From Tomocerus qinae (Eukaryota > Arthropoda > Collembola > Entomobryomorpha > Tomoceridae), in the NCBI GenBank assembly GCA_020055645.1, contig CM034549.1, positions 6,262,001 through 6,326,000 on the forward strand: 64,000 nucleotides of DNA, in the 5' to 3' direction. Below are positions 571-63,511 of this stretch, piece after piece. Below the pieces are notes generated by a model. It saw nothing but the letters and a program-made list of their open reading frames with translations, was not told the DNA's origin and searched no databases. The position numbers and the translations under genes were made by a program. Position 1 is the first letter of the stretch. Each line of letters begins with the position of its first letter.

Positions 571-3500
571 ATGGCTCTTCATTTAGATGTAAGTAAATAT
601 TATTATATGTTATATTTTTCAGTATTTCGTGACAATAGAAAATGTAAAACAAAATTTATATTTATTGATTTTTATTGTATCCATTTTTACTTGGTTTAGA
701 ATATTTTGGCTAAGCTCAAATTAACAATTTTACCAACTGGAAATCAGAATAATTTTACATGCTTGGCAACTCGGCCAGTTCCGTTCTTTCACTGATTTTA
801 ACCTTTGGTATGCAAAAGTTGGTTTGGGGTTGATAAGCATTGAAAGGTGGGAATATAATAACGAAATATAAAACAAAATCTAAAAACGGGTATATTTTGG
901 CGAAGCGTACACAAATTTTTCAGATTTTAGCAACAGTAAACTAGTAAATAAATGCTAATGAAAATCTAAAATCACTTTGATCCTAATCTCCTCAAATTTG
1001 CGTCTTAACGTCTCATTTACTGAAATTTGCGATTAGCTAGAATTTGTCCAAGAATGTGGTACATGCTTTAAAAAATATGACAAATTATTGTTCAACTCGG
1101 GGGATGTGTTATCAAAATGTTCTGCTGATCGACTAGTCAAAGCAGACGGTTCTAACCTAAGTAACCTATATAGCTGTATGTGTGGCTGAGTGAGTTTATG
1201 GGTTTATGGTCACAATAACTTTCGAACGGATTGAGATAACTCAATAACATTTTCTTCGATGAATGGCGTAAATATGACCTTTGACCTTGGAGTAATTAAT
1301 TTTTTTCTTCGTCTTCAATGGATTGTTGGAAGCCTAAAAAAGCCACAACCATAGACAGTTAGATAGTTTTACAAAACCCTAGACAGTTTTACAAACATTT
1401 AAAAAATATGTTTTTCCGCTGCTTTAGTACAACGTTTACCACAGTTTATTTTGATTATCTTTATACAGAAAGAATTGGAGAATGTGATCGTCGAACCAAC
1501 ATTTCGGTTATCCAGGGATATCTCATTTGGCGAAACGGTGAAATGGATGGAAAGGAATTGGTCACTTTCTGTTTATGCAGTTTTTGTATATTTGACATTT
1601 ATTTACTTCGGTCAGAGGATTATGAAGAATAGAAAAGCCTTCGACCTTCAAAACGCACTCGTCATATGGAATTTTGCACTGGCCGCATTTTCCATCAACG
1701 CGTCACTAATCCATCTTCCAGAATTAAGGATTTTATTGTCCAACGGCGGATGGCATAACTCCGTGTGTCACTGGTTGTAAGTCTCAGTGTTTCAGTTTTA
1801 AATCCATATTTTTAATTTTAAGGTTGCTCATCACACCTGCACACAGTGTACAAAATTTACCACTTTTTAGGCTTTTTTACCATCACAGTGGTAAAAATGC
1901 ACTTAATGGTAAAAATGCATTTAATGGTAAAAATGGTAAATATTAGCGATTGATTAGACAGATTAGTACAAATACACTAGACATCCTAAAATATACGTTT
2001 TAAAACTTTATTTTCTATGAAACATTTCCAATGAGCCCCTTAATTAATTAAATTAATCTTATTCATTTGATTGTACACCGAATGTTATAAAAAATGTTAC
2101 CAAAACCAAGATTCCATTTGGTTTCACCCACTTAAAATTGAGATGAACGTGTCAATTTATTTGCAATTAATTTCTCAATCGGCAAGGGTTGTTAGTGCTC
2201 TCCTTTTTAGAATCATACTCTGTTTGCTAAACACTTAATATTACATAGCGCCTTAAGCAACTAAATTGGGCGTACAGGTCTGTCTAGTGGTCTAAACAGC
2301 CGCTTCTCAGGCTGAGGTCTGGAGTTCGAATCTCTGGAGCGCCTCAGGTCTAAAAGGTAGTAGTCTGGAGCTGGGAGAAGCTGTCATTGCCGTATATTCG
2401 TTATTAGCATTGATTTGCCTATCTTAGTGACAATATGATTATCTATCAATGCCCTGTCTGGAGTGTATGGATTGTTCTGTTGGTCTGTATACGTGCTACG
2501 AGTTCTACCTAGCACAAGTCTGGACAATGGGATGCACATGAGGTGATAAGGTGGATTGAAGTAGACTGCTATAAGTGATTTGCCAGTGGTCACTGGCGGT
2601 CGGCTTACATGTTCCGGTCCCTCTCTGACTGCCCACCAGATCGAGTTGCGGGACAGTGTTGAGTCGTTCCGTCTCATGGTTCAGTACTCTTCACTAAGTC
2701 TCTTCGTGTAAGTCTGTACACTTAGTAAAGTTGTTCCGGGAGCCACTGCAAGTAAGCCCTCGCGGCTTGAGCGGTAGCATAGCTCTACTAATCAATAGTA
2801 GTAGCTGTGCTCTCCCCCTAACACACACATAAGCAACTAAATTAATCATATTTATTTGATTGTACCCCAAAAGTTATAAAAAATGAAGAAGTATTTGGTA
2901 TCGCCCATTTAAAATTATATGCTAATTGAATTGCAATTAATTTCTCAATCGGCAAGGCAAGGGTTGTTGCGCATTGGTTGAATACTACTCTATTTCATGA
3001 ACACTTACCAATTTGTGACAACAACGATCATCTGCTAAGCCATTTCATACTTTGGCACCGAATTTTATTCAAAATTGAAACACGAAATTTAAATGAAACT
3101 ATTTTTTACCATTTATACCATTAAAAACCACTTACCACTACATTTTAGGCAGTGGTATTTAACGTTAAATACCATTAAAAACCACTTACCAGTGGTAAGT
3201 GGTAAATGGTATTTTGTACACTGCCTGCACAGCAACCGCATGTGCCTATCTAAATGCGTGTTAAAAAATGCTTTACATCAAGCTTTATTCCTCCCGAAGA
3301 TTACGGCCGATCAATGGGACTTACATTTTTGAAATCCTGGACAATCGAGGAACACAGGAGGGCGGATGGACTTTTGATATTATTGCTTTAAATGCTTTTT
3401 AAAAAATCGAATTCCAAAAAAAGTGAATCAGTTTTAGTTTTTATACAATGTTGATTTTTTTGCACCATTTAAAGTAATAATATCAAAAGTCCATCCGCCC

Positions 3501-4707
3501 TCCTGTGTTCCTCGATTGTCCAGAATTCCAAAAATGTAAGTCTCATAAAAATCGGCCCTAATCTTCGGGAGGAATAAAGCTTGATGTAAAGCATTTTTTA
3601 ACACGCATTTAGATAGGCACATGCGGTTGCTATGCAGGCGTGATGAGCAACCTTAATAGTTTGGTACAGGTAATGTTTTAGGTTTAGAAATTTTAAATTA
3701 CTTAATGATTTAATCACCAATATTAATAATGATCAATTGGGATTTTTTCTAGAAATGGCACAAGCGAAGAGTCGAAATATTTGTTTTGGGTTTTCGTACT
3801 ATCAAAGATGGTTGAGCTGTTTGACACTGTATTTATCATTCTGAGGAAAAAGCAATTGTCATTTCTTCATTGGTAATTTCTGCCTATTTTCAACTTTTCA
3901 TCTTCCGAATTCCAATTTAAATTGACTAGTAAAATATAAGTAGTAGATGAAAGGGTTAATTTGAACGGAAAAATTCACTGTACAACATTATTTTGAAATT
4001 GTATATTAATCTTTTATTTATCTTCTTTATTTTCAACCATTAGAATTAGAATCTAAAATAGTTAGCAACCATTAAAGCTTTCCCTATATAATTTTGAACT
4101 GTGAATAATTTATTTCTATTTTCAAAACTTAAATAACTTTATTATGGGAAACAATAAAATCCTATGCATTATTTTCAATGGTAAATGTATTGTATTAAAT
4201 TATTTATTTACGAGTTAAAAAATGATTTTAAGCAGTTTTGTTTATTTTTTTAAAATTATTTTGAGCAGTTCTTTCTTATTTTAAAATTGGGATTGTTTTT
4301 TATCAATTGTATTATTATTATTTTGTAGGTATCATCACGCATCTGTGCTTCTGTATTGTTGGTATACATACAGCCAACAAAGTTCAGCAGCCCCTTGGTA
4401 TGTGATCATGAATTATTTCGTTCATTCTATCATGTACAGTTATTACGGACTTCGTGCCATGAAAATCAAAATTCCGAAGACTGTAGCAATGACTATCACA
4501 ACTCTCCAGTTGGTCCAGATGGTCCTCGGTCTGGCAGTCAACATCTATGCATATCAAATGATAACAAACAACATTGAGTGCGGAACCCCCCTTCAGAATA
4601 TTCAAATCAGTCTCGCCATGTACGCCTCTTATTTTGCATTATTCATTCAATTTTTCTACAAATCTTATTTTACAAGTCACCGAATTGCAAAAACCAACAA
4701 AAATTGA
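571..4707 (+). CDS. ELOVL6: ELOVL6-type very-long-chain fatty acid elongase, copy 1
   Basis: This is a 3-ketoacyl-CoA synthase of the ELO family, an ER multi-pass membrane enzyme that condenses malonyl-CoA with a fatty acyl-CoA. Four exons are inferred: 571-588, 1469-1776, 3753-3872, 4329-4707; the phases join to a 274-residue protein (human ELOVL6 is about 265). Visible signatures are SKMVELFDT, the histidine box HWYHH split across exons 3 and 4, MNYFVHSIMYSYYGL and TTLQLVQM, all typical of the family. The ELOVL6 assignment rests on the N-terminal half (KWMERNW, RKAF, WNFALAAFS). The start codon gives only six residues before the first intron, matching the layout of the downstream paralogue. 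Intron 2 holds nested transposons. The neighbour at 8408 is a tandem duplicate. The 18-nt first exon is the least certain part. Confidence 0.88.
1844..3223. mobile_element. Non-autonomous hAT-type element inserted in the foldback arm
   Basis: The ends are inverted copies, CAGTGTACAAAAT at 1844 and the complement ending GTACACTG at 3223. An exact 8-bp duplication CCTGCACA lies at 1836-1843 and 3224-3231. Eight-base target duplications and CAGTG ends are hallmarks of hAT transposons. The interior is rich in ACCACTTACC/GGTAAGTGGT inverted motifs, carries a roughly 200-bp direct repeat (about 2040-2250 and 2835-3020), and hosts a SINE. No transposase is seen. Confidence 0.85.
2268..2829 (+). mobile_element. 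tRNA-derived SINE (family A), nested inside the hAT element
   Basis: A tRNA-like head at 2268-2345 has an A-box-like TAGTGGTCTAAACAGC and a B-box GGAGTTCGAATCTC, a GGCG...CGCC pairing at its ends, and is followed by an unrelated body and an ACACACACA tail. The insertion is flanked by an exact 14-bp duplication, TAAGCAACTAAATT, at 2254-2267 and 2830-2843, which is the signature of LINE-driven retroposition. The head most resembles a class II (Leu/Ser-like) or Glu tRNA; I cannot decide which. Confidence 0.85.
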
Positions 4708-8407: not shown

Positions 8408-11400
8408 ATGGAGTTCCAGTTTTCAAAGGTAATGTGAAAATATTTTTGCATTTTTAATTTATTAGGACGAACAAGTTTTGCATTTTTAAAGTATAAAAAA
8501 ATCAACAAATCTCGGAATTTAGGGGGGCCCCGTGCCCTCTTTAAATATGTCCATGCGTCAAGTATATATCAATAAAGGATATATCACACATTTTTTGCAT
8601 TTTTAGACAGAATTTTCATTATTTCGATTTTGGGTGAAGTTGGTCCAAGTGCGGAATTTTCAAATTGGCAGAATGTAAACGGTGTTTTAGTAATGAATTA
8701 AATTATGATTTTCAGGAAGCTGAAAATGCATCGCAGCCTTCGCCGCCAATTCTGAATCTGTTCACTGACTACGAAATAAAGGTCAAATTGGATTGGATGG
8801 ACAAGAATTGGACGGTTTGTTTTTACGTTGTGGCTGCATACCTGGCTGTGATTTATGGAGGACAGAAGTACATGAAAAACAGAAAAGCCTTCCAGTTGAC
8901 AAATCCTCTCATTTTATGGAATTTCGCTTTGGCCGTGTTCTCTTTAGGGGGCAGCTACATATTCATGAAAGAATATCTAAATACTTCATCCATGCACGAA
9001 TTTGCCTGCGGCCCGTGGTAAATCTTTCATTCTTTTCTCTAATGTCCAAATAATTTAAAGGAAGTTCTGAGAAAAATGTTTTTGCAAGTCTATTGGATCC
9101 GTTTAAATATTTTCTATCCTAAATTACAATGCAGTCAATGATGTTAATGCACTTCTTATGGCTTATCTTTAATCCCACGCGAACAATTTTTTATTAATGT
9201 ACTTTAATTACTGTAACCTTTGAGATTTTTATCCAATTTCCATTCGCCAGTTAATATAGCAGTAAAATTCTATGTTACATTGTTTGCAATAATAATGACC
9301 GAAAATGAGATTTACAAATATGAAATAGATATTCACTTTCAGATTAATCGTGAATTGTTAGTTCCACTTTCCTTATTCATTTGTTCTAGCCATAATGAAA
9401 CTTGGTGTGCCACAATTACAAGTAATAGAAATTCACATAGGAGATTTTCAACCTTTTTTTAACAACTACAGATGGATCTAATGATCATAGTGGGTTTCAA
9501 TCGAAAAGGAAAATCGCGCGTTATTAAGATATTTGTAGGTAGCTTCTATTATGGATTTTATTTCAGCCAGTTATAATCAGAATCGGACGATTTAGTTTCC
9601 ACATAATCATAATTTTACTCATTTATCTATAAAGTAGGCAATCAACCCTGATTTAAATCTTTAGCCTGCCTGCCTGCGTGACGTTAATCTGACTCCATGA
9701 CGTGAATATCTACAATGCTAATTATCAACACATAATAGTATTACCTTAGAAGTTTTCTCAACTCAAATCCGGTTTTAGCTCGCCTGACGAGCTATATAGA
9801 ATCGCACAGTCTGTCCGTCCGCGCGATGAAATTACACCAAGTTTGTCCCCACGATAACTCCCGAAAGAATTGACAGAATTTGACCAAACTTGGCAAAAAC
9901 GTTGTCTATAGGCTTGTGACGATCCCTATTGATTGTTGACAGAATATGTCAAACGGTTCGCAAATAACAGCCGAAAAAATATGTTATTTAATCTTCGGTG
10001 TTACTGTTAATTGCCATAATGCCGCTTTTATTGAAAACTTGTTGAAATATTTGTAATGGTTGTAAAACACAGACCAAAATAAATCTGTATGCTTGTCAAA
10101 CATGAATTTCTGCTCTTATAATAACTTGGATTAATATAGTATTAATTGCCAAATTATTGGTTAACATATTCAACCTACAAATTGTCCATTTTATTCTGCT
10201 TGCTTTTAATGGGTAATTTTATAGTCGCAATAAACGTTTCTACTTAAAACTGATCCTGTTAGTAGAAATTAAAAATGGTAATACAAACATTTGTGTGTTT
10301 CTAAATAAGACCTTTTAGCTCGCACGATAAGGCAGCTTATTTCAAAAGTAAGAACAATTTTGCGAATTTTTGTTTGTTAAAACTGCTTCCAGCTGTCGAA
10401 AAACGAGAGTACAAAAGATTAAATTGAAAATTTAGATGTGCTTTTGTTTAAAAAAGCATGACGATATCATTTGGTAGACGATATTAATCCATTATTGTAC
10501 ACAGGCGTTTTTAGCTCGCCTCAATAAGGAATTTTGATAGTTAGCATTAATCAATTTTGATTTTCTGTTGATTTTAATAGTCAACATTAATCAATTTTGA
10601 TTTTCTGTTGATTTTGATAGTCAACACTAATCGATTTTGATTTTCTGGTGGTTTTGATAGTCAACATTAATCAATTTTGATTTTCTGTTGATTTTGATAG
10701 TCAACACTAATCAATTTTGATTTTCTGGTGGTTTTGATAGTCAACACTAATAGATTTTGATTTTCTGGTGGTTTTGATAGTCAACACTAATAGATTTTGA
10801 TTTTCTGGTGGTTTTGATAGTCAACACTAATAGATTTTGATTTTCTGTTGATTTTGATAGTCAACACTAATCGATTTTGATTTTCTGGTGATTTTGATTT
10901 TCTGGTGATTTTGATTTTCTGGTGATTTTGATAGTCAACATTAATCAATTATGATTTTCTGTTGATTTTGATAGTCAACACTAATAGATTTTGATTTTAT
11001 GGTGATTTTGAAGGTCAACATTAATTTTTTTATTTTCTGTCGATTTTCATAATCAACGTTTATCTATTTTCCACTCATTTATAATGGAGACTAGAAACCC
11101 TCCTACACCTCAAATTTTAGCCTGACTTTTCATGTTAAAAGGAGGAGTAGGATTGGTTTCTAGTCTCAGTTATTTTTGAGTTGTTAATACTTTGATTTTC
11201 CATTTTTTGATACTCAATGTTAATCAATAAATATCAAAATAAACCGATTTCTATAATTCTAAAGATGTGGGCACGTTCCCCTTTCCTCAGGCGAGCTTAT
11301 GTTACGGCTTGCTGTAGGTTTCATTGTTGTTGCTCCAATATTCTCACTGCCATATTATGGTCTGCAATCTCCTTATATCTACTTTTATTGTTACTCGATA

Positions 11401-12305
11401 ATTATCAGAAGAGGCTGCATCCTAAAACTCCATAAGAAATGACTTTTTTAATCTATTCTCACTGATAACAATTTTTCCCATCAATATATTCTAATTTAAC
11501 AACGTATATGTGTAGGAAATCCAGATCAGTGGAGGCCGTTCACTGGGGATGGCTGTTCAACGCTTCCAAATTTGTGGAGCTTATCGACACAGTATTTCTC
11601 GTTCTTCGGAAAAAGCCAATAATATTCCTTCATTGGTCAGTAAATACAAATACTATTAAATAACTTAAATTCATACTAAAATCTGGCTTAAAAACAAAAA
11701 TGTCTTACTAAAACGTAATTTAATGTAAATTATTAGTAAAAGCGATAATCATTTCCATTTGTGTTGAATAGGTATCATCACGTGTCAGTACTTCTATATT
11801 GCTGGACTACTTATGCTGAGCAAAATTCTACAGCCACTATCTTTGCTTTTATGAATTTTATTGTTCACTCCTTCATGTACAGGTAAAAAAATTTTATCAC
11901 TTGCAAACCAAAAACTGTAATTTAGTTTCCATACAATCTCGATACATAAATTGAAGATTATATAGAAGGCAACGTTTATTTATTTGAATCAGCTGTAAAA
12001 AAATAAATGTGAATTGTTTATTATGTAGCTACTACGGACTGAGTGCAATGAAGATCAAAATCCCGTCGAAGGTGTCGATGACGATCACAAGTCTGCAGTT
12101 GCTCCAGATGCTCGGCGGTCTCGTCCTCATCAGCTACGTACTTACCACCAAAATTCGTGGAGGGGATTGCAGCACTTCTGAAAACAGTCTCTATATGGCA
12201 CTCGGCATGTACGCTTCGTACTTTGCACTCTTTGGAAACTTTTTCTACAAAGCTTATTTCTCAAGCGGGAGTAAACGACGGGTTGCGGCTGCCAAATCGC
12301 AGTAA
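8408..12305 (+). CDS. ELOVL6: ELOVL6-type very-long-chain fatty acid elongase, copy 2
   Basis: Tandem paralogue of the gene at 571, with the same proposed condensing reaction in the ER membrane. Five exons are inferred: 8408-8428, 8716-9017, 11516-11635, 11772-11882, 12029-12305, joining in phase to 276 residues. SKFVELIDT, HWYHH (split at the same codon as in copy 1), MNFIVHSFMYSYYGL and TSLQLLQM are present. Exons 1-3 break at the same positions as copy 1, which shows common descent. An additional intron (11883-12028) interrupts the MY-SYYGL segment that is continuous in copy 1. The C-terminus is basic (SKRRVAAAKSQ). The predicted first exon encodes seven residues. Intron 2 (9018-11515) contains a repeat-rich element with a 40-bp minisatellite. 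Confidence 0.9.
8462..8560. mobile_element. Remnant of the GGGGGGCCC-palindrome MITE family
   Basis: Contains TTTAGGGGGGCCCC followed by a short AT-rich tail, matching the right half of the better-preserved copies at 28326-28507 and 44594-44754. The left end and target duplication are not recognisable, so this is a decayed or truncated copy in intron 1 of the second elongase. Confidence 0.4.
9776..11299. mobile_element. Repeat-rich element bounded by inverted TAGCTCGCCTGA motifs
   Basis: TAGCTCGCCTGA at 9776-9787 is mirrored by TCAGGCGAGCTTA at 11287-11299. Two further direct copies of TTTTAGCTCGC occur at about 10314 and 10510. The left part (9800-9960) includes the dispersed CTGTCCGTCC...CGATAACTCCCGAAAG motif that recurs elsewhere in the window. 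A 40-bp minisatellite fills the middle. No coding frame and no clear target duplication were found, so the class is undetermined. Confidence 0.5.
10543..11060 (+). repeat. 40-bp minisatellite, about 12-13 units
   Basis: The unit carries GATAGTCAACACTAATC followed by GATTTTGATTTTCTGGTG. Units alternate between TAATCAATTTTG, TAATCGATTTTG and TAATAGATTTTG variants. Around 10880-10925 three extra 17-bp copies of the GATTTTCTGGTGATTTT half-unit have expanded on their own. It lies wholly inside an intron of the second elongase. Confidence 0.9.
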
Positions 12306-53215: not shown

Positions 53216-56200
53216 TTAGGTCATTTCATTAGAATGTGATGGCTGAATTCCCAAACCCAAAGCTTCCAAGAGACCTGAATGATTTGCAAAATCTATGTAA
53301 ACTTGAATGATATCTGTAACATTAGGAATTCTGTCAGAGATATTGGGTATAATTTGTTGTAAACTGTCACTCAAACGATAAAGGCTGGTTTTGCTTTTGA
53401 GGGAGAGTTCATTGATTAAGCTAGCATTGTAAACCATAGACATAAAATCAGAATTATCAGCAGTCAAAAATGATAACCAAACATTATTCTCACTTTCTAG
53501 CTTTAACTTTTCTGCAAAATCTTTTTCCGACACAAGTTTCACCCTATAGCCTTCTCTGGTACCGATGGTCACTAAATCCTCCGAATAAATGGGTACAGGT
53601 TGAAATAGATTGAAGATTTTCTGTTGGGAAAGGTTATTAAATCCAATTTCTAGAGTTAGTTGTGACGCTATGTCACAAGGAAAACAATGCCAGCCCCCAT
53701 TGAATTGAGGAACGATTCCCAAGCGGGTAGATAAAAAGAATAAATTCAAAAAAGTATCGGTTTCAACGGTGAATACACCAGTTCGACTGTCCCCAATTAG
53801 GGTAGGATATCGAATAACTGTACACGGTAATCCCCGATGGACAGCAACAGACATTAATTTCTCGCACACAAATTTTGAGATGACGTAGCCCATTGAAATT
53901 CCATCACCCAAGTTTTCTTTCTCTGGAAATTCCTCGGAAGCGAAGCCCTCATCTGTCAGTCTATTAATTGTTGCAAATGTAGAAGAAAAGATAACCCGTT
54001 TTGTTTTGATACTTGATGCAAAGCGGAGAATATTCAAAGTTCCAAAAACATTGACACTGCGAATATCGACATTATTTTTAGATTGCTTGTACTGTTCCAC
54101 ATGATTTGTTTTTGCCGCCAAGTGGTACACACAGTCTATGGTTTCCGACAGAGCGCTATAGTCAGCAGTGGACATCCCTAGCCTCTCTTCAGTAACATTG
54201 CCCACTAAAATTTGAACCCTGCTTAAATCAATATTTTGTAGTTGAAATTTTGTTAAATTCGAAATCAACCGTTTTCTTGCAAAAAGAGCGTTTTTCGATC
54301 TTATTAAGCAATATATCCGAGAAATACTATTGGTTTCCACAAGATCTCTCAAAATATAAGCACCAAATCGACCTGTTGATCCTGTAAGTAGAATATTCTT
54401 CATACCAGAAGATTGAGGAGCCTCGCCCACAGTTTGAATATCTTCAGGTAGAACTGAATCTTTCTTTATCAAATCCTTTAATGCATTCAGATCAATACTT
54501 TTAGACCCTTTAGGAGAGTTAGAGTTTGATGTCACGGATATTGTCATTTCAGCTAGATACTGGCTCAGGCTGTTGATATTTGGGTGATCTAGCATGGAAT
54601 TTGCATTTAAGTCAATAGTTTTCCCAAATATATGTTGCAATTTATTTCTCATTTCAACTGCCATTAAAGAATCTAAACCCATATCCGAAAATGTTTGAAA
54701 TTCATCTAATTTCTCACTCTCTGGTAGCTTTAATGTTTTGCGAATGATTGTTTCCAAACGGGATTTAATGTATACCAATCTTTGTTCAAAAGATAAATTG
54801 CTTATTTCATCCCAAAAGCTTTTACTTTGAATTGCGATGGATTGATTTGGCAAATCTTCACTTTCATGCAACAGCTCTGAAAGTATATTATCCTTTATAG
54901 GAAAGTGTTGGATATACTCTGTGATATTCAATTGAATCACAGCTAACTGAACTAAATTCGGGCGGGTCATTGCAAATTTTAGAGACGCGATACCCTGATT
55001 TGGAGTAAATGGCTTGACACCATGTAAACCTTCTTTGCCATACGATGTACCGGTAGCAGCACCAACTTCCGACCATGCACCCCAATTAATTGTTTGCGCA
55101 GGAAGTCCAATGGAATGACGATAGTAGGCCAACGAATCCAAAAACATATTTGCCGCTGAATGATTGGCTTGACCCATAGGACCTGAAAAATAGAAATAAG
55201 TTAATATACAGGTTATAATTTAGAGGCACCGAAATTTAGCAGCATTAAACCAATGTTTAAATGGAATTAGAAAATTTTCTATTTCCCCTTATGATTAGTT
55301 GCATCGAAATTTTCTTCGACTTTTAGTTTTTATTTGACAACCAGTTATAGCGTAAAATATTAAATTTACCTATAATAGCTGCCATTGAAGAAAACAAGAT
55401 GAAATGCTCCAAATTCATGTCTTTGGTTAAGTTGTGCAAATTCCAACCGCCAATCACTTTTGCATTAAATACAGTTTGGAATTTCTCCCAGGATTGGTTT
55501 CTGTACATTGCATCAGCGAGAATTCCTGCGGAATGAACGACCCCTCGGAGTGGAGGCATTTGGCCGTTGGAGGCGATACTGTCAAAAAGATTTTTGCATT
55601 GCTCCCAGTTTCCTACGTCTGCTTGGTAAGACAAAATTCGGCATCCCTGTGCTTTCATTTTATTTAAAACTTGTACCACGTTTTCATTTGGGGCAGTTCT
55701 GCCCGCCAAAACAATATTCTTTGCCCCACAATCTGACATCCATTTAGCGACTTCCAGTCCTATGCCCCCTAACCCACCAGTGATTAGATAGGTGGCATTA
55801 CCATTGAAAATTAAGTCATTTTTAAAATTGCGGCCTCCTTTGTTTCGAACTTCTGGGGCGGCAACCACAATTTTTCCAATATGTTGTGCTTTTAGGAAAT
55901 AATTCAAAGCATCACGAATGCACTCCATTTCAAATCTGGAGTAAGGCAATGGGGTACAGACTTTTTTATCAAACAAATCGTGCATGGCATTCATCAGTTT
56001 TAGCATTTCTGACAGATTCACATTCTCCAAATCAACTATTGTGTAGTGAACATCTGAACGTAAATTTTCAACGTCTTCATTTTTCCAAATATTTACTTTC
56101 CCTATTTCTACAAAACGGGCCTCTTGGCTACAGACTCTGAGAGTAGTTTCCTTAAATCCAGGTCCAGTTAGCGAATTGAGAACCACGTGGACATCCAACC

Positions 56201-59200
56201 CTAAATTCTCGATTTTATCCCCGAAAGTCAAATCTCTGGAGTGGAAAATATGCTTGATACCCAGATGGGCTAGGTAACTTCTTTTTCTCTGGCTACCGGC
56301 AGTCGCTATTATATTGGCACCAATATACTTTGCAATTTGAATTGCAATCAATCCGACACCTCCTGAAGCCACGTGAATTAAAATGGTTTCTCCCTTTTTC
56401 AAATTTGCCACATTTACTAGACAATGATAAGCCGTTAGAAAAACGGACGGGATTGTTGACGCATCGGCAAAAGTAAATTCTTTCGGTTTTCGCAACACCA
56501 TCCCTGAATTTACAACCACGTGACTTGCTGCACTACTTGCTTGAGATATCCCAAATACTTCATCCCCTATTTTGTATTTTGTAACCCTCTTTCCAATTTG
56601 CGTGACTATTCCAGAGAAATCCGTTCCAACCGCATCAAATAACGTTGAGTACATATCTGGCTTTAGTATAACAAAAACGTCTCTGAAGTTCAAAGCGAAT
56701 GATTTGACAAGAACTTCCACATCATTGTCGTTTATGCATCCTTTGTTGGTAGGACGGAACATCACATCCCTGATGTTCTTTGAATTCGGAATATCTATAG
56801 TATACCTATCTGGTGGAAGAGTTAGTGGGGCTTCCTGTTTCGGCAATCGGACAAATCTGTTGACAAATCGTTTTTTGTTTCTATAAGCGATAATTGCTTC
56901 GCCTTTTTCAAATAACTCATAAAAGATTTCGTTACTTTCATTCAACAAATCGGAGTCATCTGGATCTAAATCTATCAGTTTAGCTTCAAGAAGTGGCATT
57001 TCGCTATTAAGGCTTTTGACCATTGCAAATAATGGCGCGATTTCTGGATTAACTTTTGATTGATTGTTGGAAATATAATAAACACCTTTTCCTACTACGT
57101 ACATTCGAGTTTTAACAACTGCGTTCATTGATAAATACTTACTTATATTCAGCATTTGAATATACATTTGATTGTGATTATTTTCAGGGTTGATCTTTGA
57201 AAAGTATATTATGATACCGGAAACGCTGTATTTTTCATATACAAGATCTAGGGCTCTTTTTAATTGTTCATAATCTTCGATGCAAATGTTAACTGCATCA
57301 TCTGTCGTTGCATCAGTTTTCTGCGTAATCTGCAAAATGTTTTCACCGCAATTGGATATCTTTTTATACAAATGTGAATATTGTGAACCAAAATCTGAAA
57401 AAACTATCCACGTTTTTTCTTTTCCTTGGACAATGGCTGGTGGTGGGGGTTTGTTATTCTCAATGGCTCTTGACACTAGAACGCCGAAAATTTCTTGATG
57501 ATCTGATATTTCGGTTGGACATGTAAAGCTGTTCTCTGAGAAAACAATATCCCAAATTTGTTTAGAGGCCATGGGATGATTTTTTCTTAAATCGGAATCT
57601 GTAAATTTCCAATAGCTATCCAAAATTCCGAAGATGAAATCAATGCATCTAACTGGCTTGAGCATCTCCTTCATTACAAAAATACCATTTGGCATAAGAA
57701 GAGAATGGACATTTTTAATGGATGTTCGCAGGTTTTCAGTTGCATGAATGATATTGGCAGCTACAACAATATCAAATTGATTAGGACAAAACCCTTGGGA
57801 GGAAGGATCCTTTTCGATATCAAGCACCTTGTATTCCACTGCTGAATTATTTATGAATTCTTCTTTAGCCAAATTTAAAAAGTGAGGAGAAATATCCGTA
57901 AAGGTGTATCTGAAGTGGATCCCATTTTTCTGAAGCATTTTCATTATTTCTCTAGAAGTTGAAGCACTTCCGCCACCGACTTCAAGAATTCTTACAATCT
58001 GGCCACTTGGTTTTAGTTCTTTCAAGGCAATATCCAAAAATTGTGCAATTCGGGTATTGGAAGCAGTATCTTCAGCTGAGAAATTATAAATATCTAATGG
58101 TTTGATATCTTCTGTATCGAACAGGGCCTCTATCGCCCCTTCTTTGCCTTGAAGAACGCTCCATAATTTCACCTTGCACTTTAGAGCTATATCTGTAATG
58201 ATGTGTCTCCCTTGTGCTCTGGTAGAAATCCCCTCCTGTAACCTCGATAAATTTCTTTGAATGATTTCCAAATTTGGAAACGGTTTGATCATTTCCCAGT
58301 CATCGGTAGTGCCGTACTCATTACGTATTGGAATGAAATAGCCATCTTCACTCAAAATTTCTAATATCCGATGAAAAAACAAACTATGAGAATTGGATAT
58401 AATATTCTGCTGCATGACTGAGCGGGAGTTATAAATTTTGCCAACTTCGGAGAAAACCCCATTTTTGCTAAATATTTCCATCAGACACAAAGATATTATT
58501 TCATCTCCGATTCGCATAATTTCAGGGTCCACATTTTTCATTGGTTCTTTCATCACCTTGTCTAAAGTTTGTTTGACCACATCCAAGTCTAATTCATGGT
58601 CTAATTCCATCCTTGATTGGGAGAAACCGTCCCTAACTCTCCATATCTCGTGGTACATTCCAGGTAGTTTCTTCTGAGTGTTAACCACATTGAGAAAGTT
58701 GCTCACAGATGTTTTTATCAGTCGAATATTTTCCATAATTGCCAGCAGTTCATTATTCCCGGAGTACAGAGCAGCAGTGCCAGATGTTGCACCCGCTTCC
58801 CATTTGGTATGAGCAAAATAAAACCCACTTTCGGAAGAAAAATCTTCTAAAGAATTTATGCAGAAAAAGCGACCGATGCTTACAGGAAGGTATAATTCCG
58901 CATTTTCTCTGCCAATGGTCAAACCCAATGTTTGTATCATGGCGTCTAAAATAACTGGATGATAAATATAATCATCTGTCGCTTTGGATGGTATAGAAAT
59001 CTTGGCTAATATCTCATTAGTGCCTTCCCAGATTTCTGAAATCTTTTGGAAATTTTCGCCGAAAAAAATACCAATTTCTGGAGCATGTTGGTACATTTCT
59101 TTGCAAGATTTTGATGCAGGACAGCGACATTTTATAGCATTGATGTCATCTCTACTGAAATCCTCTTTGTTGTCCTTGTGCATTGCTAAATATGCACTGG

Positions 59201-62200
59201 AATACTGTTTCCAACCTCTTTCTTCGTTGTAACCGTTTATTTTCTGGTATACATAAAAACGCACAAACCGTTTATCAACAATATTTTCTACAGGAGAAAC
59301 TACCACCTGGATTTTGTACTTTTTGTCTTCCTCCAGCACGAAAGGGGATTCTACTACAAAATCTTCAACTTTCAAAGACCGATCTGAAAATTCCGAACAA
59401 TTTGACAGACAATCCCTTCCGGCTGCAAGAAAAACCTCTAAATATCCTGCAGCAGGGACGATAATAGTATTTGCAACTTGATGATCGATCAGGTACTCAA
59501 TATCTTTTAAATTCCAAGTGTGTTGATAAATTGTATCTTTTGTATCTGCAAGACTCACCCTTCGGCCCAAAAGAGGATGAATTGGTTTGACGTATTCTTC
59601 ACCTTTGAATTTTATCCAGTACTTTTGTCTTTCAAATGGATAATATGGTAGTTGAATCTTCCTCCTTGGACCTTCTTCAAGAGATTTCCATTTAACATCA
59701 ACGTTATTCGTAAACAGTGTTCCTAAACTATTTAGTAGCGTTTTCCAATTATTCTCGTTTTTTCGAATGGAGGGAAGCCAAAGGGAATTTTCTAAATTTG
59801 GTAAATTGGACATTCCTAGAGCTAACAAAATTGGATGCGGTCCTATTTCAATGAAAATGTTACACCCGAGATTAGCTAGGCTTACAATTGCTTTGGAAAA
59901 TTGAACAGTCTCTCTTGCATGTTTTTTCCAGTAGTTCCCATTAATTTGGCCGTTAGTTATGCATTCGCCTGTCATTCCCGATACATATTTGCAGCGCGGT
60001 GGATTATATTTGATTCTGTCGGCAAACGACCCATAACTATCGATAATGCTGTCCATTGCCCTTGAGTGAAATGGACGAGAAGCAACCAAAAGTTGACATT
60101 TTTCGCTATTGTCGCTGCAGTATTTTTGAAATAATTCTAACGTTCGCTGGTCACCTGCCACTACAACCTCCTCCTCTGAATTGACTACAGCAATATCTAA
60201 CCACGTATTCATATTATTTAACAGGAAACCCGAAATTAAAGCATTTGCCCTTTTTTCCGAAGTTCTAATTGCCAACATTCCACCCTCTGGCAAACTTTCA
60301 ATAAGTCGACTACGTTCTGCAAGTAATAACAAAGCATCTTCAAAATCCAAAATCCCTGCTGCAGTAGCTGCTCCAAATTCACCTGCAAAAATAAATAAAT
60401 AAAGATAAAATTTTAAATTTTAGGCGGGCCAATGAATTGTCCCTATGCATATGTGAAAATAGTTAATGAATTCAAACTCACCGACACTGTGGCCCAAAAC
60501 AAAATCTGGAACAATACCCAAGCTTTCGAATAATTTCAGGAGTGAATATTGAATTGAATAAATCGTCAGTTGGCTGTACACAGTTTGTCCCAACAAATAT
60601 CCATGCTTGTCATTCCATAAAACATCCATTAGACTAACGTTTTTTTCGACAATTTTTGCACAATCTTGAAATGCAGAGCGGAATACGGAATTAGAGTTGT
60701 ATAATTCACCAGCCATTTCTAGATACTGGGAGCCCTGTCCAGTAAAGAGGAATCCAATTTTCCCATTTCCTGACTTGATTTTCGGGGGAATGAATTCAAA
60801 TTCATTCAAATTGAATTTCAGCTGGTTGATGTCTTCCGCAACTACAGATAATCTGTGTTTCAAATGTGCTCTTCCATTGTTTGCCGTAAATGTGATATCC
60901 CCAATATCGGCGAGTGGATTTTCATTCAAAAATTCAATATAGTTGGAGGCCATTTGCGAAAGAGCATTTTCAGATTTGGCTGACAGAGAAAGAATGAAAT
61001 GACTTCTATCCGCGTCCAAAGGATTTGCAAATTTATCGTTATTTAGTAAATGAGTGGGTGGTTCTTCAATAAGTGCATGAACATTCGTTCCGCTAATTCC
61101 AAAAGAACTAACTCCAGCTATTCTTACCCGGTTGGACTTGGGTTTCCATTTCAAAGCGGATGTTGGTATCTTGCACAATTTGGGATCTAAATTGATGTTA
61201 GGATTTAGGGCGTGGAAGTTCAAATGTGGCGGGATGGTATAATTTTCCATCGATAAAAGAACTTTGATTACTCCCGCCAAACCAGCAGCCGACTCGGTAT
61301 GACCAATGTTGGTTTTCACAGAGCCTAATATCAAGGGTTCATCCCTTTCACCTTGATACCCAGCTGTTAAAGCGGCAAATTCAATCGGGTCTCCAACAGG
61401 GGTACCCGTTCCATGGCCTTCAACATAATCAACATCTTTCGGTTCTACCCCAGAATTTCTAAGAGCTTCTTTTATAGCAATTTCCTGACAACGCTTGCTT
61501 GGAGTGCCAAAACTGGAGGTGGTTCCTTCATTACTAAGAGCAGATCCCCTAATTAGTCCCATTATTCGATCCCCGCTTTTTAGTGCTTCGGGCAAACGTT
61601 TTAAAACCATCACAGCGATTCCCTCTGCCCTCCCGAACCCATCCGCTTTCTCATCGTACGTTTTACAGTGTCCATCTGGTGCGAGAATTGAGATTTCTGA
61701 CAATGGAAATTGTAGAATTATGATATTTGCGCCAAGAACCAATCCCAAGTCTGTTTCTCCTCTTTTCAAACTCTCACAAGCCAGATGCAGCGCCACCATC
61801 GATGAAGAGCAACCCGATTCTGTAGCTACATTTGGACCATTCAATCCCAAGAAATAGGACACTCTTGAAGATGTAGCAGAGAAAGCATTTCCAAGAACCA
61901 CGTGATGAAAATCTTGTCCTGTTGTGTTCTCCTTGATCAATCGTTCGTAGTCGTGAGTCCAGACTCCAGTAAAAACTCCGGTGTTGCTTCCTTTAAGAGA
62001 GTGAGGGTCGATGGCCGCATCTTCTAGTGCTTCCCAAGCGACCTCTACTAACAGTCTTTGTTGAGGATCCATGAAAGATGCTTCGCGGGGGCTGATCCCG
62101 AAAAATTTGGCGTCAAATTCATCTACCGCACATTTTAGAAATCCTGCCTTTGTCTCCGTAAATCGAGGGTCGTGTCTCTGATAATCAAAAAGCCGATCTG

Positions 62201-63511
62201 GTGGGACTTGGCAAATTCCATCCCCTCCATTTTTTATCAACTCCCAAAATTCGTTGCTATTGTTAGATCCAGGGAACCTGCAGCTGTAGCCTACAATTGC
62301 TATTGCTTCTTTGTAGTAATTCTTTTCTAAGCAATACATTTCTTCGACAAATTCTGTGGGATTTGGAGAAAGTAGCAAGTCACATTTAATGTTCAGTGGA
62401 ATATCCTTGTAAAATGAGTCCCAAATGTTGAAAATAGTCTGAAATCACATTTTACAATTAATTTTTATCCTTTATCATAAAATAAACTAATAGTGAAATC
62501 AAACTGAAATTCATCTGTACTTACCTTTAACACAGCATCATTTTCACACAGATTCTTTTCGATTGCATTTTGCCAGGCTTCTTTCCCAAACGAAACCATT
62601 TTCACTCCCATTAAACTCCTGAAGAAAAATGTACTAAAGTATTAAATTCCTATTTCTAGAAAATACATAAAATATGATATGATAATAAAATAGTTATCAT
62701 AACCCTTTACCCCTGATTTTCTGGAGAAACGTTAAAATTGTTGATAATGGACAATTTCCTTTTTGAAAATTTTCGAGACTTGCAAACTTTATTGAGTAAT
62801 TCCGCAACTGTTACAAATAAAAACAAACAATTCACTAATCCGAATCCAAATTAGCTAACAAACATTATTCATTTGATGAACTTTAGATCCCTCAATTATA
62901 ATGACTATCAATGCTTCAATTAATTTGAATTATTAGAGCTCGAAACCACCCAGAAATGTTTCGCCCATCCGGTCTTCAGTTCAGACATTTAAATACACAA
63001 AATTAATAAAAAAAATTATAGCTTACAATTTTTGAATGTGTGTCCATTTGATGTGAGTTTGGAAAGTTTCAGATAAGTATCCAAGCATGGTTTAATGACA
63101 ATTGCGGACACATCAAAGCCTTTCGGATTAGAATACAGAGAGCCATACGAAATATCATCATTTGTATCGAAAACCTCGTCACAATTTTTTAGAACCTGCA
63201 AAAAATTAACAGATGGTCATGCAGGAAGATATACTTTCCACAACCATTGTATATTTGCAATGCAAAACATTTTCTTGACCTCGTACCATTGTATTCGAAT
63301 GAAGAATGACGCATTTTGAATACATTCCCAAATTCCAAGCATCAAGAATTAGTTGATCTTCTGGAGGTAACACTTTGCCCTTAGAGGCACAAACAGTTTT
63401 TAGAATGATGACATCAAAGTAGTGGGCCAAGGTTTTCCTACAAATAACATTTTTAAAATAAAAACATTGCAAAGTCAAAAAGCCTGAAAACCCCCTGATA
63501 GAACTGTTCAT
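53216..63511 (-). CDS. Highly reducing type I polyketide synthase with terminal reductase
   Basis: Multidomain polyketide synthase that builds a carbon chain from malonyl-CoA. Firm exons: 62525-62618, 60482-62438, 55370-60382, 53216-55182; upstream exons 62711-62807, 63027-63195 and 63287-63437 (perhaps to an ATG at 63511) join in phase. From the Met at 62611 it is 3007 residues; about 3173 with the extension. Domains numbered from that Met: KS 73-505 (Cys239 in SGCSSS, EGHGTGT, NIGHTES), AT 580-882 (GHSVGE Ser680; RPFHS suggests malonyl), DH 945-1240 (His982, HPVILDA Asp1161), C-methyltransferase 1440-1660 (EVGGGSA), ER 1880-2195 (ASGGVG), KR 2210-2395 (GGLGGIG, but His2360 for the usual Tyr), ACP (GLDSL Ser2524), reductase 2615-3007 (GSTGRFG, YVISK). 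There is no thioesterase, so release is probably reductive. Animal origin versus old transfer is open. Confidence 0.9.
62612..63511 (-). other. N-terminal extension exons of the polyketide synthase
   Basis: Three candidate exons (63287-63437, 63027-63195, 62711-62807) each have AG and GT borders, and their phases chain exactly into the exon at 62525-62618 (0, 1, 2). Translation gives about 130 residues that I do not recognise, including KVLPPEDQLILDAWNLG, NPKGFDVSAIVIKPCLDTY and FAELLNKVCKSRKFSK. The frame is also open from 63437 back to an ATG at 63511. It could be a loading or docking domain, or the 3' exons of a separate gene that fortuitously keep phase. Further exons may lie beyond the window. 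Confidence 0.55.

Follow-up and report, generated by a model that had tools for sequence, protein, structure and literature searches.

A reductase-ended synthase gene at the locus

The 64,000-nucleotide stretch of the springtail Tomocerus qinae genome analysed here, referred to as the window (contig CM034549.1; G000:C4:6262001-6326000 in an assembly of 334.4 Mb on 115 contigs), carries on its minus strand, at 53216-63511, a gene whose sequence supports its assignment as a complete, C-methylating, fully reducing, reductase-ended polyketide synthase (PKS) in chromosomal animal DNA, separate from the animal's own fatty acid synthase (FAS). The gene is intact, with seven exons (63511..53216) whose spliced translation yields 3173 codons in one frame, and all six introns are GT-AG (junctions chosen by hand and spliced by script). 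Pfam matches run along the minus strand in the order ketosynthase (KS), acyltransferase (AT), dehydratase (DH, in two halves), methyltransferase, enoylreductase (ER), ketoreductase (KR), PP-binding and NAD_binding_4, and are spread over three stop-to-stop frames of 674 codons (KS and the start of AT), 1698 codons (AT, DH, methyltransferase, ER and KR), and 667 codons (the end of KR, the acyl carrier protein (ACP) and NAD_binding_4). The chance of an open exon of 1671 codons at the composition of the window is ~1.6e-50, and comparison with the paralog L029 shows differences at codon positions 1, 2, and 3 in 0.37, 0.24, and 0.61 of codons respectively, a pattern that indicates constraint, with third positions near saturation.

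An earlier note on this DNA, made from the sequence alone, had proposed a single intron-containing KS-AT-DH-cMT-ER-KR-ACP-reductase gene (cMT, C-methyltransferase), with which both the Pfam order and the seven-exon, one-frame GT-AG model agree. The reductase motif GSTGRFG that it placed near residue 2620 is present but lies at residue 2786 of the new model, the earlier model having been without ~165 upstream residues, and the glycogenin-like exons upstream of KS had been overlooked. Because the first exons are glycogenin-like, position 63511 is probably not the true gene start, and the gene probably runs beyond the edge of the window, with the N-terminal part of the glycogenin-like region outside it. 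Neither a tRNA (ARAGORN, bacterial settings) nor an Rfam match at the gathering threshold was found in the 64-kb window.

With domain borders of our own choosing on the 3173-codon model, KS (residues 236-656) contains the motifs ESGCSSS, which holds the cysteine, EGHGTG, and KTNIGH; ESGCSSS recurs in 26 of at least 57 KS segments of this genome, and among bacterial KS segments DTACSSS prevails (133 of at least 178). The AT (755-1082) carries GHSVGE and SRPFHS, the latter resembling the HAFH form that we take to be malonyl-selective. The motifs DHxxxxxxxxP, HVASGGVG, and GLDSL are found in DH (1113-1415), ER (2040-2359), and ACP (2651-2732) respectively, whilst the cMT (1423-1824) keeps LEVGGGSAS and HAT and aligns with CurJ, including the histidine of HAT and the glutamate of the following strand, both presumably catalytic. 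A presumed pseudo-KR occupies residues 1837-2031. The KR tyrosine excepted, the order KS-AT-DH-cMT-ER-KR-ACP is found on one chain with the active-site motifs that define a highly reducing, C-methylating type I PKS.

In the KR (2376-2562) the nucleotide-binding motif GGLGGIG is present, with histidine at the usual place of the catalytic tyrosine (GQANHSAAN). This place is occupied by histidine in 11 of 26 segments from this genome (nine Tyr, six unread) and in 12 of 140 bacterial segments (86 Tyr, 4 Asn, 38 unread), with a methyltransferase match at all 12 bacterial loci that have the histidine type. As bacterial KRs share the histidine, all at loci with a methyltransferase match, the substitution looks inherited rather than a defect. 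Following the ACP, the thioester reductase (TR, 2779-3166) carries GSTGRFG and YVISK, in keeping with the TGxTGxxG and YxxxK patterns of thioester reductases, and scores 161.7 bits with Pfam NAD_binding_4. It stands in the place of a thioesterase, for which no Pfam match was found in the gene.

Table 1. Exons and domains of the window gene (~ marks approximate borders)
Feature	Position in window	Strand	Remarks
Glycogenin-like glycosyltransferase family 8 (GT8) exon	63287..63511	-	5' limit uncertain: ATG at 63511 or AG acceptor near 63437; HSN at the DxD place
GT8 exon (VLKNCDEVFD...)	63027..63195	-	start is the break point of the canonical glycogenin gene
Probable GT8 exon (AELLNKV...)	62711..62807	-	supported by GT-AG borders and frame; gives no significant match by itself
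Probable GT8 exon GVKMVSFGKEAWQN, cf. glycogenin KVVHFLGRVKPWN	62525..62618	-	by eye; similar L016 stretch aligned with glycogenin
KS (62318-61056) and start of AT (from ~60761), preceded by a probable last GT8 helix IFNIWDSFYKDI	60482..62438	-	helix by eye
Rest of AT (to ~59679), DH ~59588-58680, cMT ~58658-57453	within exon 55370..60382	-	
Presumed pseudo-KR ~57416-56832, ER ~56807-55848, KR from ~55799	within exon 55370..60382	-	pseudo-KR lies in the cMT-ER interval
End of KR (to ~55052), ACP ~54787-54542, TR ~54403-53240, stop 53218-53216	exon 53216..55182	-	

Glycogenin-like exons and the gene family

Exons upstream of KS in the window match residues 87-162 of PDB glycogenin-1 (E 7e-8). 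The exon preceding the KS of the paralog L016 matches glycogenin with an E value of 8e-14, and the GT8 pieces of that locus, ordered by eye, are collinear with glycogenin residues 86-262 (E 1.4e-15). A genome search with the L016 exon as protein query (E up to 0.1) returned 55 GT8-like matches which, like the KS and TR matches counted below, are exon matches and lower bounds, several of which can belong to one gene. A KS lies within 5 kb downstream on the same strand for 48 of the 55 (~0.05 expected by chance), whereas within that distance no match has a KS upstream on its own strand or on the opposite one. The remaining seven comprise four with a KS 5.1-13.5 kb downstream, one with a TR 9.2 kb downstream, one whose only KS lies 13 kb upstream, and a last one, at C1:83797148, with no PKS nearby. 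A TR is also present for 42 of the 43 distinct GT8-associated KS.

The match at C1:83797148 is assigned to the genuine glycogenin gene, with a 66-residue glycogenin query matching C1:83795982 (residues 1-24, 79%) and C1:83797151 (residues 22-66, 71%). This gene breaks within query residues 22-24, after DADTL, and the window exons break likewise between HSNTM and VLKN. Among the GT8 matches, 38 of 55 end or start at the glycogenin break, 15 ending at query residues 49-52 and 23 starting at 42-50. The metal-binding DxD motif is gone in each of the 20 GT8 exons that were read, namely 18 fetched ones, that of L133, and that of the window, with the surrounding residues kept in diverse paralogs.

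Whilst the earlier note had framed the synthase as a lone gene, it is one of many. The Pfam KS model gives 127 genome matches at 123 places, the FAS among them, and the TR family PF07993 gives 126; contig C100 may duplicate C1:34.0 Mb. A TR lies downstream of 98 of the 127 KS matches, on the same strand and within 11 kb, mostly ~7 kb away, and 31 of the 126 TR matches are without a listed KS upstream within 11 kb. The open frames holding KS matches reach at least 2850 codons in 49 of 127 cases, with 11 at 2300-2400 codons and 58 below 2000. The fetched paralogs L029-L032 have KS domains 69-75% identical to that of the window and an identical domain order with TR, and L014, L016, L017, L020, L021, L023, and L025 also have a TR, with KS identities of 56-61%. 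No TR was found in the ~10 kb read at L013, L015, L018, L019, L022, L024, L026, L027, and L028, the read ending early for some of these.

TR-type synthases are densely clustered at G000:C1:0.40-0.78 Mb, most of them in open frames of ~3000 codons. At L009-L012 (G000:C1:34.00 Mb, 35.26-35.29 Mb, and contig C100) there are arrays of near-identical PKS modules at a spacing of ~7.6 kb, with the order KS-AT-DH-MT-ER-KR-ACP, a DTACSS-type KS, and frames broken in places; these form a second, modular-looking PKS class on an animal chromosome, with separate KS clades. Related synthases at L013, L015, L018, and L019 (G000:C1:53.5-57.6 Mb) also form a separate KS clade, with no TR or cMT detected in the stretch read.

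Origin of the synthase and its proposed joining to glycogenin exons

Against the PDB, the KS-AT region scores 621 bits with 7zma, a 'putative polyketide synthase', 502 with CurL, 434 with PikA, as much as 427 with DEBS, 390 with mycocerosic acid synthase, and 321 with LovB, with no chain named FAS among the best 60 of 181 matches. We take CurL, DEBS, CurJ, MxaA, and DisA to be bacterial, and LovB, psoF, and the citrinin PKS to be fungal. The TR scores 115 and 114 against bacterial PKS reductases and 27 against a fatty acyl-CoA reductase; matches to it occur in 12 of 20 bacterial genomes searched (named genomes among those of the 80 loci), at identities of at most 35%, and none on the stretches around the 80 bacterial KS loci listed. 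KS identities are 42-49% to those 80 loci, compared with ~30% to the animal's own FAS (C4:27.58 Mb). Both KS and TR are closer to bacterial PKS parts than to the FAS or to plain acyl-CoA reductases.

The KS phylogeny proposed in the earlier note was run as a quick tree of 39 KS from this genome (38 and the FAS) and 45 of the 80 bacterial loci listed, leaving out the other 35 and KS segments of this genome covering fewer than 360 query residues. Thirty-one of the springtail KS form one clade (SH-aLRT 99) separate from the FAS, which sits on a long branch of unsure placement. Two further springtail clades derive from the multi-module arrays, and one bacterial row falls outside the other bacteria. 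The tree separated the family from the FAS, with no clear sister group recovered among the bacterial rows. The intron-poor, large PKS stretches behind intron-rich host exons are consistent with a history of bacterial acquisition, which is the best reading, short of proof, on a tree that covers KS of this genome and of bacteria.

Taken together, we propose that the window gene encodes a bacterial-type, C-methylating, highly reducing type I PKS that works iteratively, belongs to a large family, and had its gene joined downstream of duplicated host glycogenin exons, a reading to which we assign a probability of roughly 0.66. Several observations weigh against it. The histidine in place of the KR tyrosine leaves the activity of that domain unsure, and the TR scores 200.5 with TIGR01746, below the NCBIfam cut-off of 213.35. 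The fungal cMTs of psoF (111) and the citrinin PKS (109) score near that of bacterial DisA (114), and the springtail KS clade has no clear bacterial sister in the quick tree. Pfam calls no GT8 in the window (N-terminal 235 residues, with only part of GT8 inside the window), the three GT8 matches from a genome search with PF01501 do not include the PKS-linked exons, and neither the helix nor window exons three and four give a significant match by themselves. The supposed glycogenin break is crossed by 16 of the 55 GT8 matches. A stop lies between helix and KS in L014 and L023, and a frame change in L016, so that introns must be assumed there, and at other loci, such as L031, L020, L024, and L013, the KS frame shows no such helix. 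Finally, the joining of GT8 to PKS is read from genomic DNA.

The last of these points bear on an alternative of two adjacent genes, GT8 and PKS, that were duplicated as a pair, with the GT8 part a decaying pseudogene or an untranslated leader and the PKS starting at an ATG of the KS exon. We consider this unlikely, although it deserves attention: an ATG is available before KS in the window (such as in ...EEMYCLEKN), and the loss of DxD in every GT8 exon read, together with the stops and frame change separating helix from KS, would suit it. Against this, in the window and at L029, L030, and L032 the KS frame stays open upstream, uninterrupted, across what by eye resembles the final helix of glycogenin, the exon phases are compatible, and the residues flanking the lost DxD are conserved among diverse paralogs. 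Fusion into one transcript and protein seems likelier than two genes.

Descent from a fungal rather than a bacterial highly reducing PKS (HR-PKS) would explain the domain order, which is that of fungal HR-PKSs, and is compatible with the psoF and citrinin PKS scores given above, whose closeness to that of DisA makes the cMT by itself a less clear guide to a bacterial or fungal origin. The best cMT score is nonetheless that of CurJ (154), compared with 78 for LovB, the KS-AT score of LovB falls well short of that of CurL (321 against 502 bits), and the histidine of the KR motif also occurs in some bacterial KRs (12 of 140), making a fungal source rather improbable.

Still less probable, to a degree we regard as slight, is that the gene is a diverged animal FAS. 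Arthropods widely carry animal FAS-like PKSs (AFPKs), of which a small number have reductase (R) ends (PMC10764717). The KS is, however, only ~30% identical to the animal's own FAS, below its identity to the bacterial loci listed, and its clade stands apart from the FAS in the quick tree, long-branched though the latter is; with cMT motifs kept and a TR in place of the FAS thioesterase, the distinction from animal FAS drawn in the earlier note is borne out. Bacterial or symbiont contamination, which the bacterial-type domains and large open frames might suggest, can be dismissed, as the earlier note had done, in view of the introns, the GC content (34-41% in fetched paralog stretches, 28-37% elsewhere in the window), the location of matches on contigs of 24-140 Mb, and the ELO, hexosaminidase, and trypsin genes in the same window.

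Proposed function, other loci and known systems

If expressed as a single active protein, the synthase would be predicted to act iteratively, with the AT loading malonyl units, KS extending the chain, the cMT adding methyl groups derived from S-adenosylmethionine in some rounds, and KR, DH, and ER reducing the chain, which the TR with NADPH would release from the ACP. The product would be a methyl-branched aldehyde or alcohol, from which methyl-branched hydrocarbons, wax, or defensive lipids might be made. Having lost its metal-binding DxD, the GT8 head probably no longer transfers sugar, and would most likely act as a dimerisation or docking platform. We lean, by a small measure, towards the fuller account in which a bacterial-type PKS was captured by host glycogenin exons as its new 5' end, the sugar-transfer site died, and the fusion multiplied into dozens of genes, the head serving as a non-catalytic loading or docking element and the family supplying an arsenal of branched aldehydes or alcohols.

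Should transcripts confirm the joining, this would be a foreign megasynthase domesticated through capture of the exons of a housekeeping gene and then multiplied to dozens in one animal. It would place the unusual lipids of springtails on a genetic footing and offer a test case for the function of a dead glycosyltransferase on a PKS, and the host exons, as marks of the capture event, could help to date it in relatives.

Elsewhere in the window, at 4285-4704, 8638-9018, and 11988-12302, there are exons of fatty-acid elongases (ELO), seemingly two genes, ~41-49 kb from the PKS, which may act on the same lipids. Three tandem, near-alike trypsin-like exons lie at ~37400, ~45200, and ~50400, with Pfam trypsin found in the two tested (37399, 50420), and a repeated exon downstream of them (47298, 52017) receives no Pfam name where tested (52017). 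At other loci (G000:C1:120031248, C2:4509309), matches to DIOX_N dioxygenases each occupy one open frame (374 and 368 codons) and are possibly related to isopenicillin N synthase (IPNS); these fit springtail IPNS-type genes but prove nothing.

In Folsomia candida, 36 biosynthetic clusters were reported by antiSMASH, 30 of them type I PKS, with most cluster genes also counted as horizontally acquired (PMC5490193). The Tomocerus family resembles this springtail in its many type I PKS genes, and differs in its TR ends, cMT, and glycogenin head, which are absent from the description compared. Lin et al. (PMC10764717) describe true PKSs as few among arthropods, refer to one in Folsomia that was gained by horizontal transfer, and note a few arthropod synthases ending in R domains. 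The earlier note held reductase-ended, C-methylating synthases to be known mainly from fungi and bacteria; springtail type I PKSs and a few R-ended arthropod synthases had already been published (PMC5490193, PMC10764717). The AFPKs (PMC10764717) are likewise arthropod synthases tied to branched lipids, a few with R ends, but they cluster with animal FAS and mostly terminate in a thioesterase, whereas the window family stands apart from its own FAS, the only FAS compared. PMC10825826 describes a springtail hydrocarbon that carries a methyl branch and cyclopropanes, and this may be linked to the window gene. In open-access full-text literature, with papers judged by title and the start of the abstract, no glycogenin-PKS fusion was found, and an open-access full-text search for glycogenin and Collembola returned nothing.

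The synthase shares with fungal HR-PKSs such as LovB the KS-AT-DH-cMT-ER-KR-ACP order and an iterative logic, but its KS-AT similarity to them is below that to bacterial enzymes, and we know of no GT8 head on a fungal HR-PKS. The nearest solved domains include the C-methyltransferase of CurJ for the cMT and the reductase of MxaA for the TR, the surroundings of the bacterial KS loci listed differing in giving no TR match. Compared with glycogenin, the PKS-linked exons differ in the loss of DxD and in their placement before a PKS, and resemble it in their collinear GT8 pieces and common break.

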